A DNA stretch of 64,000 bases, from NCBI GenBank assembly GCA_016194975.1, contig JACQAM010000023.1:124001-188000 (forward strand). The letters run 5' to 3'. The first letter of the stretch is position 1. Each line of letters starts with the position of its first letter. Source of the DNA: Bacteroidota bacterium. GTDB lineage: Bacteria; Bacteroidota; Bacteroidia; Palsa-965. Positions 7,093-54,405 of the stretch are shown one piece after another. Made by a program: the position numbers and the translations under genes. The notes under the pieces are model-generated. The model did no database searches and was not told the DNA's origin. It saw nothing but the letters and a program-made list of their open reading frames with translations.

Positions 7093-7100
7093 TACCTTTG
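7073..7100 (+). promoter_or_regulatory. Predicted promoter of the SRP RNA gene
   Basis: A TACCTTTG at 7093-7100 fits the Bacteroidota -7 consensus TAnnTTTG, with a TTG at 7073-7075 seventeen bases upstream. The last base of the box is four bases before the first base of the SRP RNA stem at 7105. That is where transcription would be expected to begin. The agreement of box, RNA end and terminator makes this one of the firmer promoters in the window. Confidence 0.6.
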
Positions 7101-7104
7101 AATC

Positions 7105-7200
7105 GGGTAAGTCTTACACGACCAGCTCCTGCCGAATCCCCCAGGATCGGAAGGTAGCAAGGGTAGGCGGTTGTAGCGGTGCGATGTAAGTAGCTTACCC
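7105..7200 (+). ncRNA. ffs: Signal recognition particle RNA, small bacterial (4.5S) type
   Basis: The RNA pairs with Ffh to target membrane and secreted proteins co-translationally. Its apical region, around CAGGATCGGAAGGTAGCAAG at 7142-7161, has the GGAA tetraloop closed by C-G and the asymmetric internal loop that bind the Ffh M domain. The ends GGGTAAG (7105-7111) and CTTACCC (7194-7200) pair to close the hairpin, giving about 96 nt, the usual size. A run of ten T from 7202 serves as the terminator. Symbol ffs is by function and structure. Confidence 0.9.
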
Positions 7201-7212
7201 ATTTTTTTTTTC
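7201..7212 (+). terminator. T-run terminating the SRP RNA
   Basis: Ten consecutive T at 7202-7211 directly follow the closing stem of the SRP RNA, which itself acts as the terminator hairpin. Confidence 0.6.
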
Positions 7213-7326: not shown

Positions 7327-7887
7327 TTGATTCCGCCTCTTTATCTCGAATCTTCACGACTTATTATTCGTCCATTTAAATTATCGGATGCTTCTTCTCT
7401 TTTTCACCTGGTGAATTCGAACAAAGATCTGCTTGAAGATTATTTTCCGATGACGGTAGAGAAAAATACTTCGGTGAATGCCAAGCGCATTTACATCATG
7501 GAAAGAAATCATGAACGCAATAATGGGAAAGCTCTTTTCGCCGGAATTTTTCTTCGCGATGAAAAAAAACTCATCGGCCAGATGTGTGCGAAGGATATCA
7601 ATCATCGTGTGCCTAAATGTGAAGCTGGATATTTCTTAGACAGGAATTTTCACAGGAAAGGACTTGCAACAGAAGCGCTGAATTTATTTTTGAATTTCTG
7701 TTTCAGCGAAATGAAAATGGCAAAGATCACGCTGCGCATTGAACCGAAAAATACTTCGTCCAAAGCACTGGCACAGAAATGCGGATTCACCATGATCGGT
7801 GTTTCTAAAAATGATTTCAGAAGTGCCAATGGCCGGCTGATGGAATGTGAACTCTGGGAGTTGTACGAAATACGAAAAGGATACTAA
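7327..7887 (+). CDS. GNAT family N-acetyltransferase (RimJ/RimL-like)
   Basis: The 186-residue protein opens with LESSRLIIRPFKLSDA, the first strand and helix of RimJ/RimL-type acetyltransferases. The acetyl-CoA-binding segment is around FHRKGLATEAL, where R/Q-x-x-G-x-A is expected and RKGLA is seen. FTMIGVSKNDF follows near the end. The only start that keeps the first strand is the TTG at 7327; an in-frame stop lies 24 bases upstream and the first ATG is far inside the domain. The last seven codons and the stop lie in the left arm of a perfect 36-bp inverted repeat. The substrate is unknown. Confidence 0.83.
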   Translation: MIPPLYLESSRLIIRPFKLSDASSLFHLVNSNKDLLEDYFPMTVEKNTSVNAKRIYIMERNHERNNGKALFAGIFLRDEKKLIGQMCAKDINHRVPKCEAGYFLDRNFHRKGLATEALNLFLNFCFSEMKMAKITLRIEPKNTSSKALAQKCGFTMIGVSKNDFRSANGRLMECELWELYEIRKGY

Positions 7888-7968
7888 AAGTTACGAAAGT
7901 ATTGCGTGAAGAAATTTTCGTACCCTTTGGTATTTCGTAACTTTTAGTATCCTTTTCGTATTTCGTAC
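7863..7968. repeat. Perfect 36-bp inverted repeat (tacgaaa words)
   Basis: Positions 7863-7898 are the exact reverse complement of 7933-7968, with a 34-nt loop. The arm is built of near-repeats of tacgaaa. The left arm encodes the C-terminus and stop of the GNAT gene; the right arm reaches to within 13 bases of the -7-like box (TAATTTTG, 7981-7988) of the fsa gene. A stem of this length would be a strong transcript-end structure, but without a T-run. It is the most perfect example of the word-type hairpins here. Confidence 0.85.
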
Positions 7969-12187: not shown

Positions 12188-12312
12188 GCGGGCGGCCGGG
12201 CTATCCCCGCCCGACTGAACGTCGTTCGGGCGGGCGCTCTATCTTTTGTTTCACAAAAGGATGCCGCTTCTATCCCTGCCCGACAAAACGCAGTGAAGGC
12301 GGGCCTGCCCGG
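12188..12312. repeat. GC-rich dispersed intergenic element with nested hairpins
   Basis: Within AT-leaning surroundings this 125-bp tract is GC-rich and holds three palindromic parts. They are CCCGCCCGA/TCGGGCGGG (12206-12214 and 12226-12234), CTTTTGT/ACAAAAG (about 12243-12259) and a third cgggcag/ctgcccg pair further right. Read on the minus strand it contains GCGGCATCCTTTT...AAAAGATAGAGCGC. I recall that string as part of a palindromic element common between genes in Bacteroidota; this recollection was not checked against a database. It lies downstream of two converging genes. Confidence 0.6.
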
Positions 12313-49641: not shown

Positions 49642-51753
49642 ATGACAAAATTTGCTGAACTGGGCCTCAGGCCCGAACTGGCTGCTGCTGTGGCCGAACT
49701 TGGTTTTATTCAACCAACTCCCATCCAGGAGCAGGCGATTCCCGCTTTGCTCGAAAATAAACGCGACCTCGTTGGACTCGCACGCACGGGCACAGGAAAA
49801 ACTGCTGCTTTCGGTTTGCCGCTTTTGCATTTTATTAACGCAGATAAAAAAATTCCACAGGCATTGGTGCTTTGCCCTACAAGAGAATTGTGTATGCAGA
49901 TCTCCGGCGATCTCAAAAGCTACGCGAAAAAATTGCCGGGCGTTTTTGTTCTTCCTGTTTATGGCGGAGCAAGCATCAGCATGCAGATTAAAGATCTTCG
50001 CCGCGGTGTACAAGTCATTGTAGGAACACCGGGACGATTGAATGATATGATTGAACGCGGTGCACTCAAACTCGGTGAAGTGGAAATGGTGGTGCTTGAT
50101 GAAGCCGATGAAATGCTGAACATGGGTTTCCGCGATGCGATCGATACGATTCTTGCAGAAACTCCTTCAACAAAAACTACTTGGCTTTTTTCTGCAACCA
50201 TGCCCGATGGTGTTGCACGCATTGCGCGCAGTTACATGAAAGATCCGATCAGTCTCAGCGTGAAAAGTTCGCAAGATACCGACGGAAAGATCGATCACTT
50301 TTATTGCATGGTTCATGCGCGCGACCGCTATCCCGCATTGCGCCGCGTGATTGATGCGCATCCCGATATTTATGGAATTGTTTTTTGCAGGACAAAAGCG
50401 GAAACGCAGGATGTGGCCGATCATCTTATCCGGGACGGATACATGGCCGATTCTCTTCACGGCGATCTTTCGCAGGCGCAGCGGGATCATGTGATGAAAC
50501 GCTTCCGTCATAAAACATTGCAGCTACTTGTTGCGACTGATGTTGCAGCACGTGGAATTGATGTGGACGACATCACTCACGTTATGCATTACCAGGTGCC
50601 TGATGAGCCGGAAAGTTACACGCACAGGAGCGGGCGCACAGGACGCGCAGGCAAAAGCGGAATTTCTATTTTATTTTTAAATGCGCGCGAATCCGGGAAA
50701 CTCCGCGAGATAGAACGAAGAACAAATAAGAAAATTATTTACCTCCCGGTTCCAGCCGGTGCTGATGTGGTGAAGAATCAACTCGTTTCTTTTGCAGCAA
50801 GATTGAAAACAACTGATTCGCAGAATTTAGTTTCTCCGGAATACATGAGCTTATTGAAAGAGGCAATGGGAGAAATGAGTTCGGATGAGTTGCTCGAAAA
50901 ATTCATGGCGCTTTCGTTGAGTAAATTGCTTGGCGATTATGCAAAAGCTCCCGACCTGAATGTGAATGCACGCGGTACAAAAGAGCGCGATCATACTCCG
51001 CGTGAACGCCGCGAACCCGAAGGAGAAAAACATACTTTCTTTTTCAGTCTTGGAAGAATGGATAATGTAGATCCCGGCCAGCTGCTCAGAATTTGCTGCG
51101 ACCAGATGAATATTAACCGCGATCATATTGGCCGCATCGATCTGAAACATAATTTCAGTTTCATACAGATGATAGGCGTTGAACCTGCAAATGTGCTGCG
51201 TGCGTTCGATGATTTTTCTTTCCAGGGAAGAAAAATTCGTGTGAACCAGGCAGAAAACGGCGGAACAGAACGGAGAGATGACAGCGGGGAGAATGGAGAA
51301 AGAAGAAGTTATGGTGAGCGGCGCAATTATGGCGAAAGGAAAAGTTACGGGGAAAAAAGATCGTATGGTGGAGAAAGAAAAAGTTACGGCGAGAAAAGAT
51401 CTTATGGCGATCGTGAAAACCGCAACTTTGGTGAGAAAAAAAGTTACGGCGAGAAAAGATCGTATGGCGATCATGAAAACCGCAACTTCGGAGAGAAAAA
51501 AAGTTACGGCGAGAAAAGATCGTATGGCGATCGTGAAAACCGCGGCTTTGAAGAGAAAAAAAGTTACGGCGGGAAAACTGATTCCGGAACTTCGTCAAGA
51601 AATAAATACGGAAAGAAAAGTGAAGACGTGAATCCCGGAAAAGGATTCGGACACAAAGAGGAGAAAGAACACGGTGCTGATGAATGGAAAAAACTGATGA
51701 AGGATGAACCGGTTACCGACCGGAAGAAAAAATTTGGAAAGAAGAAGTGGTAA
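49642..51753 (+). CDS. DEAD-box ATP-dependent RNA helicase with basic repeat tail
   Basis: RecA-like domain one has the Q motif (GFIQPTPIQEQAIP), Walker A ARTGTGKT at 47-54, PTRELCMQI, VLDEADEMLNMGF and SAT (FSATMPDGVARI). Domain two has GIVFCRTKAETQDVADHL, TDVAARGIDVDDI and HRSGRTGRAGKSG. A DbpA-type RNA-binding domain follows (about 455-535: HTFFFSLGRMDNVDPGQLLRICCD...IGRIDLKHNFSFIQM). The last 170 residues are a low-complexity tail of [R/K]-S-Y-G-E and 20-residue repeats, very basic. This resembles CsdA/DbpA helicases with arginine- or lysine-rich tails that hold RNA or condense. ATP hydrolysis and RNA remodelling in ribosome assembly or cold adaptation are likely. Confidence 0.92.
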   Translation: MTKFAELGLRPELAAAVAELGFIQPTPIQEQAIPALLENKRDLVGLARTGTGKTAAFGLPLLHFINADKKIPQALVLCPTRELCMQISGDLKSYAKKLPGVFVLPVYGGASISMQIKDLRRGVQVIVGTPGRLNDMIERGALKLGEVEMVVLDEADEMLNMGFRDAIDTILAETPSTKTTWLFSATMPDGVARIARSYMKDPISLSVKSSQDTDGKIDHFYCMVHARDRYPALRRVIDAHPDIYGIVFCRTKAETQDVADHLIRDGYMADSLHGDLSQAQRDHVMKRFRHKTLQLLVATDVAARGIDVDDITHVMHYQVPDEPESYTHRSGRTGRAGKSGISILFLNARESGKLREIERRTNKKIIYLPVPAGADVVKNQLVSFAARLKTTDSQNLVSPEYMSLLKEAMGEMSSDELLEKFMALSLSKLLGDYAKAPDLNVNARGTKERDHTPRERREPEGEKHTFFFSLGRMDNVDPGQLLRICCDQMNINRDHIGRIDLKHNFSFIQMIGVEPANVLRAFDDFSFQGRKIRVNQAENGGTERRDDSGENGERRSYGERRNYGERKSYGEKRSYGGERKSYGEKRSYGDRENRNFGEKKSYGEKRSYGDHENRNFGEKKSYGEKRSYGDRENRGFEEKKSYGGKTDSGTSSRNKYGKKSEDVNPGKGFGHKEEKEHGADEWKKLMKDEPVTDRKKKFGKKKW
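51370..51569 (+). repeat. 60-bp tandem repeat in the helicase tail
   Basis: At least three copies of a 60-bp unit encode the 20-residue string EKKSYGEKRSYGDxENRxFG, with a copy-to-copy change of one or two bases. They follow shorter 12- to 15-bp repeats (GERRSYGE-like). Slippage-type expansion is expected to vary the copy number between strains. Confidence 0.8.
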
Positions 51754-51991: not shown

Positions 51992-52627
51992 TTATTTACT
52001 GAGTGTGTTCACGATGTCGAATAATTGTTCGAGATCGGGAAGCCGGTCGGAGTGACAGAAAACATGAATGTGCTTTACCGAATCGAGATCGATGAATGTT
52101 TCCCGTTGCGTGTATTCGTCGGTGATGTATTCCACCCAATTTACTTTTTGACCGAGTAATTTTCCGGAAAAATTATTTTGTGTATACTGGCGCGACGGTG
52201 GTTTGCGATTCGGATATTTTCCGATGTAAATTCCGGCTTGCCCGTGAATGGAGATCGTATCTTTTGGCGTGAAGTAATAAACAAATTCACCGGGGTCTGC
52301 TGTGTCGGAAGTAAAATTGAATCCCTCGGGTAGTGTTATAACATAACCCGTGTTGCTCACCGCAGTTTTTGTACCGGAAACAGGACGCGGATCGTGCGTG
52401 GCAACAGGAACAGAATCTGTTGAAGAATTATTTTTTTCTTTTTCACTGCAACTGAAATTGCAACTGATAAAAAAGAGAATTAAAAGTGATGCAGTAATTT
52501 TCCCAGCCCCGATGAAGTGCTTTCCCGTCCCGATCCTGATCGGGACGGAATAACGCCAGCGGGACAGGAGTGATTTTAAAGATTCTCCGCCGCCGCTCCA
52601 AAAAAACATTAAAAAAATATTTTTCAT
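51992..52627 (-). CDS. Lipoprotein with a repeat-interrupted N-terminus
   Basis: The frame opens at the ATG 52627, which overlaps the clc stop by four bases. A hydrophobic lipobox-like segment LLILFFISCNFSC begins only at about residue 48, too far in for a signal peptide. Between them residues 20-42 are encoded by a GC-rich palindromic repeat (52503-52570) and read LLSRWRYSVPIRIGTGKHFI. No ATG, GTG or TTG exists between the repeat and the lipobox. So either translation starts at 52627 with an altered leader, or the gene is damaged. The body, with SNTGYVITLPEGFNFTSD and the later FIDLDSVKHIHVFC, is unrecognised. Confidence 0.5.
   Translation of the reverse strand: MKNIFLMFFWSGGGESLKSLLSRWRYSVPIRIGTGKHFIGAGKITASLLILFFISCNFSCSEKEKNNSSTDSVPVATHDPRPVSGTKTAVSNTGYVITLPEGFNFTSDTADPGEFVYYFTPKDTISIHGQAGIYIGKYPNRKPPSRQYTQNNFSGKLLGQKVNWVEYITDEYTQRETFIDLDSVKHIHVFCHSDRLPDLEQLFDIVNTLSK
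52503..52570. repeat. GC-rich palindromic element inside a coding start
   Basis: A perfect 11-bp stem CCGTCCCGATC (52525-52535) / GATCGGGACGG (52538-52548) with a 2-nt loop sits within a 68-bp tract flanked by AGCCCCGATGAAGTG and CGCCAGCGGGACAGG. The flanks match the dispersed Bacteroidota element that I recall as AGCCCCGAT...AGCGGGACAGG, and relate it to the 12.2-kb tract. It lies in the 5' part of the lipoprotein gene on the minus strand and keeps the frame open. Confidence 0.6.
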
Positions 52628-54405
52628 TCACTTGTATTTCTGATCAGCACTTCACGATAACGGCTGAAGATGCTCGACTTTGAAATGAAACCAATGTAAG
52701 CGCCATTCTCGATCACAGGAAGATTCCACGCTCCGGTGTCGTCGAATTTTTTCATCACCATGAACATATCGTCGTCGGGTTGAATGATGGCTGCGGGCGA
52801 GCGCATGAGTTGTTGGGCATTGACGGTATCGTATAATTCATTCCTGAACATGATCTCGCGGATCTGGTCGAGAAGAATTATTCCGAGCAGCGTTCCTTCC
52901 TTATCCACCACCGGAAAAATATTCCTGTGCGAGTGTGCGATCACATTCACAAAATCGCGCAACTTCATCGCCGGATCCACTTTCTGAAAATCGGTTTCGA
53001 GAATCTTCGGCACTTTAAGCCGGCTTAGAATATTCCGGTCTTTGTTCGCTGTGAAAATATGTCCTTTGCTGGCGAGTTTTTTTGTGTCCATTGAAAACTG
53101 TTCGAAATAACGAACGACAGAAAAGCTGAGCGCAGAAACGATCATGAGCGGAATCATAAGTCCGTATCCGCCGGTTATTTCTGCAATAAGAAAGATACCG
53201 GTGAGTGGTGAGTGAAAAACTCCGCTGAGAATTCCAGCCATGGCGACAAGTGCAAAATTTGAAACAGGAATATCTGCAACCTGGAGATGATTGAGGAGTG
53301 TGGAAAAAACAAAACCAAGATAGGCGCCTACAAAAAGCGCGGGAGCAAAATTTCCGCCGTTGCCACCGCTTCCCACTGTGATAGCAGTTGCAAAAACTTT
53401 GATGAGCATGATGGCGGTGAAGAATGCCAGCACGAACCAAATGTTCCCTGAATAGGAATTGAAAAGACTATTGCGAAACAGATCAGTCGGATGCGGGCCG
53501 GAAAGAGTTTTGATGCTTGCATATCCTTCGCCGTACAGTGAAGGAAATACCCAGATCAATAATCCGAGAATGATTCCTCCGATGAGTGCATTCATGTAAG
53601 TGAAACGTTTTCGCGCGCGGAAAAATCCTTCCACCTTCGGATAGATGCGCGAATAATAAAGTGAAATGAACCCTGCGAGAATTCCCAGGAGAATGTACCA
53701 ATGTGTGTTGTGCCAGTTGAACGGCTTCTGCATCGGGAATAAAAAAAGAATATCTTCTGCAAGAATTATTTTTGAAAGAAGTGCGCCGGTCGCTGCTGCA
53801 ATAATGAGCGGGATAAAAGTGGAAAGGGTAACATCAGCAAGCAGCACTTCCATCGCAAATAAAACTCCGGCTATCGGCGCATTGAAAGCAGCGGCAATTC
53901 CGGCAGCGGCTCCGCAAGCAAGAAGAAGCGTGCGGTCTTTATAAGTAAGATGATATGTTTTTCCGAAATTGGAACCGATGGCAGCTCCGGTGGTGAGGAT
54001 CGGCGACTCGAGCCCGGCGCTTCCACCGAAACCAACTGTGAGCGCGCTCGTGATCACGTGCGAGTACATTTGGTCTGCGGGAAGTCGTGCTCCTTTTTTT
54101 GCGATCGCATGCAGCACATTTGCATTTCCTCTTCCGAGTTTTCCTTTGAGAACTTTTTTTACAAAAAAAACAGTGAGCAGGATTCCGAGCGAAGGAAGTA
54201 CGAGATAAAAAACATACTGGTGAGGAATGTGATAATCGTAAGTGGCAGCGAAGGAAATATAGTGTACCAGTAATTTCAGAATGACGGCTGCGAGTCCTGC
54301 TGTGATGCCGACGAGCATGCTTGAGAAGATGAGGAATTGTTTCTTGTCAAGTTTGTCGTGAAGCCATTCAATAAAATGCTGCGGAAGACGAAGGACTTTG
54401 GTCAC
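52624..54405 (-). CDS. ClC-type chloride channel/transporter with CBS pair
   Basis: The 593-residue protein has the ClC membrane domain. The GSAGLESP motif stands for GREGP, with Glu of the gating position kept. GGNGGNFAPALFVGA and the next ITG (FLIAEITGGYGL) also fit. After the membrane part a CBS pair follows (about 450-590: VDPAMKLRDFVNVIAHSHRNIFPVVD and MRSPAAIIQPDDDMFMVMKKFDDTGAWNLPVIENGAYIGFISKS). It is either a chloride/proton exchanger or a channel; the sequence GLESP with L for R or K does not settle it. The gene follows no partner except the lipoprotein that overlaps its stop. Confidence 0.9.
   Translation of the reverse strand: MTKVLRLPQHFIEWLHDKLDKKQFLIFSSMLVGITAGLAAVILKLLVHYISFAATYDYHIPHQYVFYLVLPSLGILLTVFFVKKVLKGKLGRGNANVLHAIAKKGARLPADQMYSHVITSALTVGFGGSAGLESPILTTGAAIGSNFGKTYHLTYKDRTLLLACGAAAGIAAAFNAPIAGVLFAMEVLLADVTLSTFIPLIIAAATGALLSKIILAEDILFLFPMQKPFNWHNTHWYILLGILAGFISLYYSRIYPKVEGFFRARKRFTYMNALIGGIILGLLIWVFPSLYGEGYASIKTLSGPHPTDLFRNSLFNSYSGNIWFVLAFFTAIMLIKVFATAITVGSGGNGGNFAPALFVGAYLGFVFSTLLNHLQVADIPVSNFALVAMAGILSGVFHSPLTGIFLIAEITGGYGLMIPLMIVSALSFSVVRYFEQFSMDTKKLASKGHIFTANKDRNILSRLKVPKILETDFQKVDPAMKLRDFVNVIAHSHRNIFPVVDKEGTLLGIILLDQIREIMFRNELYDTVNAQQLMRSPAAIIQPDDDMFMVMKKFDDTGAWNLPVIENGAYIGFISKSSIFSRYREVLIRNTSE

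Follow-up and report, generated by a model that had tools for sequence, protein, structure and literature searches.

The DNA analysed here, a 64,000-nt stretch of a Bacteroidota genome referred to as the window, carries a clc-type chloride channel gene directly followed on the same strand by a lipoprotein-like ORF (Table 1). A Pfam search assigned the ORF product to no family. The original prediction held that a palindromic element sits near the 5′ end of this ORF without closing the frame, and that the ATG overlapping the clc stop looks like the original start. We find the ORF free of stop codons throughout the element, confirm the ATGA overlap, and place the ATG outside the element boundaries. 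The claimed perfect 11-bp stem is also there, formed by CCGTCCCGATC (52525-52535) and GATCGGGACGG (52538-52548) around the 2-nt loop CT. The core (52501-52570) folded better than 200 of 200 dinucleotide shuffles on both strands, with a z score of -3.5 on the plus strand; on the mRNA strand, its fold reached -38.8 kcal/mol (z -4.7 against 200 dinucleotide shuffles). Elsewhere in the window lie a Bacteroidales small SRP RNA (RF04183, 113.8 bits; 7098-7204, plus strand), an inverted repeat with perfect 36-nt arms separated by 34 nt (7863-7968), and in-frame 60-nt tandem repeats (KSYGEKRSYGD-type) encoding the C-terminal tail of a nearby DEAD-box RNA helicase gene (51293-51577).

Table 1 Features of the clc-lipoprotein locus (window coordinates; approximate values marked ~)
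Feature	Position	Strand	Basis
clc-type chloride channel gene, immediately upstream of the lipoprotein-like ORF	52624-54405	-	homologues in 8 relatives
Lipoprotein-like ORF, 211 aa, element at codons ~8-51	51992-52627	-	homologues in G003 and G006
Start region (MKNIFLM), not part of the element, ATG overlapping the clc stop as ATGA	52606-52627	-	
Hydrophobic segment and candidate lipobox, I44-C56, joint element/host	52460-52498	-	sequence, hydropathy
Whole dispersed element (extended, Flavo-1-like)	52468-52605	+	leave-one-out nhmmer, R1, information content of 50 copies
Conserved boundaries; an A-rich tail extends beyond them to 52605	~52475-52599	+	information content, 50 copies
Flavo-1 (RF01705) core, full model length	52501-52570	+	25.2 bits
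Left arm (direct-repeat arm); gene strand encodes ~ITASLLIL	52475-52500	+	boundaries, arm alignment
Palindrome, 11 bp around a 2-nt loop; in the window copy, this is the variable inner hairpin	52525-52548	.	perfect arms, folding
Right arm, ending in GCTCC and the A-tail	52571-52605	+	information-content boundaries

Used as a plain DNA query, the window copy matched only itself and short pieces. The copies are too divergent for such a search, so profile models were needed. For the extended element we built a covariance model, R1, from nine copies, the window copy among them; it matched the window at 52465-52606. As the training set thus contained the copy in question, we prepared a new profile from 29 further copies, leaving the window copy out. 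This leave-one-out nhmmer profile recovered 52468-52605 with an E value of 1.4e-21, and it gave no match on the reversed window. The window copy therefore measures about 138 letters, with boundaries taken from the models. The 68 nt originally proposed (52503-52570) correspond to the core, and the full element is about twice as long; likewise, it does lie in frame near the start, but it spans codons ~8-51 instead of residues 20-42 within the first 42 codons.

Performing an R1 search of the 4.1-Mb source genome, we obtained 59 matches at E<=1 and about 56 below 0.01, which bears out the predicted dispersal across the genome. We put the family at about 55 copies, a detection that relied on search filters and may miss weak copies. 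When copies were aligned with their flanks, the similarity ran well past the Rfam model on both sides. The information content of 50 copies defines sharp ends. The right one is GCGCTCC with an A-rich tail behind it, and the left one is an abrupt limit about 30 nt before TAGCCCC. The left and right arm profiles carry related direct repeats, their best alignment being direct at an offset of 36.

The hairpin between the arms is conserved as a structure. Its outer pairs are fixed or compensated, stem position 2 being C-G in 34 copies, G-C in 7 and T-A in 4. Among 49 related copies of one genome, which do not represent independent lineages, this position was paired in 45 (shuffle maximum, 38) and position 8 in 31 (shuffle maximum, 25). 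The inner stem is rewritten between copies with pairing kept in most, and a mismatch, A.G or G.A, is conserved in it.

Judged by crude ORF inspection, 49 of the 50 inspected copies are intergenic and occur in all gene orientations; the window copy alone separates a start codon from the body of its gene. In search of further in-gene cases, we read the long ORFs that cross copies. One (L113) has a plausible start after the element, and the rest look spurious.

Flavo-1 (RF01705), which is reportedly listed as an sRNA in a review, shares with our element the core helix (CCCSGAT/AGCGGG with a purine-purine mismatch) and the occurrence in Bacteroidota. The Flavo-1 model aligned over its full length to the window copy (model positions 1-76 of 76) with 25.2 bits, below the gathering score of 42. 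It found further copies in the source genome, one of which passes the cut-off (44.1 bits). A second, weaker Flavo-1-like match in the window (12220-12289, minus strand, 28 bits) belongs to a different subfamily and has a near-identical paralogue at G000:C26:21331-21402. In four genomes (G001, G005, G006 and G032), R1 and above-cut-off Flavo-1 matches coincide at similar offsets, for example at G001:C139, G006:C15 and G032:C1:2107400. The window element belongs, as a divergent member, to the family that has Rfam's Flavo-1 as its core. The element differs from Flavo-1 as catalogued in reaching about 30-36 nt further on each side, with conserved arms absent from the 76-position model, and in behaving as a dispersed repeat rather than a single-locus sRNA.

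R1 matches occur mainly in the source genus and a single sister genus; those elsewhere in the class are weak. Flavo-1 is multicopy in several Bacteroidota genomes, with up to 34 matches at E<=0.001. In relatives, several copies occupy contig ends, a position typical of repeats. A pair of nearly identical Flavo-1-type copies about 39 kb apart on one contig (L195 and L196, G052:C5) have the core, the left arm (~60 nt) and the right end in common while their outer flanks differ, which suggests dispersal and makes the pair helpful for placing the element ends precisely. Flavo-1 was described in 2010 and catalogued as an RNA (PMC2864571). In the F. psychrophilum transcriptome, its matches were sense and antisense, many of them outside transcribed regions, and that study drew no function for it (PMC9723704). 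The literature that names Flavo-1, searched mostly outside subscription journals, gave no account of arms or of copies in coding sequence.

We compared the element with known repeat classes. The original prediction likened it to the Rickettsia palindromic elements (RPE), and the likeness holds for the window copy, a palindromic repeat in frame at the N-terminus of a protein-coding gene. It does not extend to the family, since 49 of 50 copies look intergenic, while many different genes carry RPE (PMC3733652 and references there); the phylum is also different, as is the sequence so far as compared. REP elements are similarly dispersed, intergenic hairpins with a conserved foot, occasionally found inside ORFs (PMC3733652). 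However, they measure 20-40 nt against about 130 nt with direct-repeat arms here, and no dedicated Y1 transposase emerged for our element from the Y1 loci scanned. REPs carry a GTAG or CGTC tag at the hairpin foot; the profile of our element has a conserved TAGC before the CCC foot. MITEs resemble it in size, dispersal and lack of coding capacity, but its arms align best as direct rather than terminal inverted repeats, and it gives no target-site duplication signal: across the family, the longest shared flank averaged 3.82 nt against a null of 3.62 (null maximum, 4.02). The shared TTTTTT flanks of the window copy are indistinguishable from the A-rich tail of the family.

Four Y1 transposase genes (L244, L245, L246 and L233) have a Flavo-1 or R1 element within about 300 nt. 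In G002 and G025, the Y1-adjacent Flavo-1 is the genome's only match at E<=0.001, and the Y1 gene is likewise the only match of its kind. The Y1 subclass they resemble is described as generally without typical terminal structures (PMC6006769). We rejected a Y1 (HuH)/RAYT transposase as general mobiliser: the four adjacent cases were noticed post hoc, and about 39 further Y1 loci gave none, the single match among them (L264) being the already known G025 locus.

We also examined the N-terminus of the host protein. Homologues of the lipoprotein were found in two congeners of the source genome, G003 (E 8.6e-31, 39-43% identity) and G006 (E 4.1e-19, 32% identity). They start MVKSLIPSLALVVSLISC and MKIFFAAAVFLLLHAC, respectively, a compact lipoprotein signal without the extra residues, and neither is adjacent to clc. 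Homologues of clc occur in eight relatives; at the seven loci that were read, no lipoprotein homologue but other neighbours stand beside it. No strain or close species with an empty site was found, and the homologues are only 31-43% identical.

In the window protein, MKNIFLM before the element and FFISC after it are host-derived, FF being ambiguous within the uncertainty of the element end; the FF/FF (TTTTTT) flanks lie exactly 44 codons apart. By sequence inspection, the candidate lipoprotein signal has a hydrophobic core at 44-54 and FIS-C56, but an n-region of about 43 residues. The hydrophobic segment, earlier placed at residue 48 and judged unusable, in fact covers residues 44-55 ahead of the candidate lipobox Cys at 56. 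Most of this stretch, ITASLLIL, is encoded by the left arm of the element, and the hydropathy of the stretch, taken over 11 residues, is 2.8, in the range of the homologue signals (2.5 and 3.1). Because the core is largely element-derived and of homologue-like hydrophobicity, the earlier view that the signal could not work is an assumption. No in-frame ATG, GTG or TTG lies between the element and Cys56, so a standard start, if any, is ATG1 or ATG7.

Taken together, the identity of the element, its boundaries and copy number, the conservation of its hairpin, the open frame and the absence of the residues in homologues are directly established. We think it probable that a Flavo-1-type element inserted into the 5′ end of the lipoprotein gene, which is still translated and whose product may still be exported. 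In such an event, a non-coding dispersed element of ~130-138 nt would have landed just inside the gene, about 20 nt downstream of clc, as an insertion and not by some other rearrangement of the 5′ end. Translation would proceed from the original ATG and yield a protein with an extended basic n-region of about 43 residues. Most of its hydrophobic core would come from the element, so that the lipoprotein might still be exported, and the hairpin on the mRNA strand may also slow translation. The insertion is supported by the leave-one-out E value, the ~55 copies, the sharp ends and the compensatory stem changes, by the coincidence of R1 with above-cut-off Flavo-1, and by the two homologues without the residues. 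The lack of a start between the element and Cys56, the spacing of the flanks and the modest chance of an open passage, given below, add to this. The account is weakened by the missing empty site, the absence of a family-wide target-site duplication and the sub-threshold Flavo-1 score. The literature warns that a repeat at the N-terminus of an ORF often proves extragenic because the start was misplaced, yet it also reports expression of R. conorii proteins with an N-terminal RPE-1 (PMC3733652).

The strongest rival is a pseudogene in which an element in or beside the 5′ end destroyed the signal peptide, the frame being open by chance or recency. An open frame is not rare, since 64 of 150 antisense copy/frame combinations (43%) are open. 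Together with the one-third frame requirement, this gives a chance of about 14% for open in-frame passage (64/150 x 1/3), so by itself the open frame says little about function and favours a maintained frame only modestly. As the sole genic exception in a family that otherwise avoids genes, the window copy may instead have landed beside the gene: the location of the other 49 copies favours an arrival in the gap between clc and a gene whose start had been lost. Relatives also have no homologue at the clc locus. Against a pseudogene, the remainder of the ORF is undamaged, with 39-43% identity to a homologue; its ATG meets the clc stop in the common ATGA overlap, and nothing is missing from the hydrophobic segment before Cys56. 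We regard a pseudogene as rather unlikely, though it is the rival to be taken most seriously.

Far less probable is a cis-regulatory RNA or translational attenuator kept for that role in the clc-lipoprotein transcript. Such a role would fit the very stable hairpin on the mRNA strand and the listing of Flavo-1 as an RNA. Against it, copies occur in all gene orientations with no conserved target gene seen, and the F. psychrophilum matches run in both senses and often outside transcribed regions. Finally, an ancestral, element-free extension resembling the repeat by chance is scarcely credible, having nothing beyond the open frame in its favour and being contradicted by the leave-one-out match over the full element length and by homologues without the residues.

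Since 2010, Flavo-1 has stood in the catalogues as an RNA without assigned function. Our data suggest a dispersed repeat of constrained structure and defined ends, of which Flavo-1 is the core and whose mobility and effects on the host thereby become testable. We raise, as a tentative and rather doubtful proposal, that Flavo-1 is, rather than primarily an sRNA, the core of a mobile DNA repeat that has its own arms and extends across Bacteroidota, one copy of which was recruited here as coding sequence for a working lipoprotein signal core. If true, the copy that supplies most of the hydrophobic core of this signal would be a clear case, outside Rickettsia, of a non-coding repeat turned into coding sequence.
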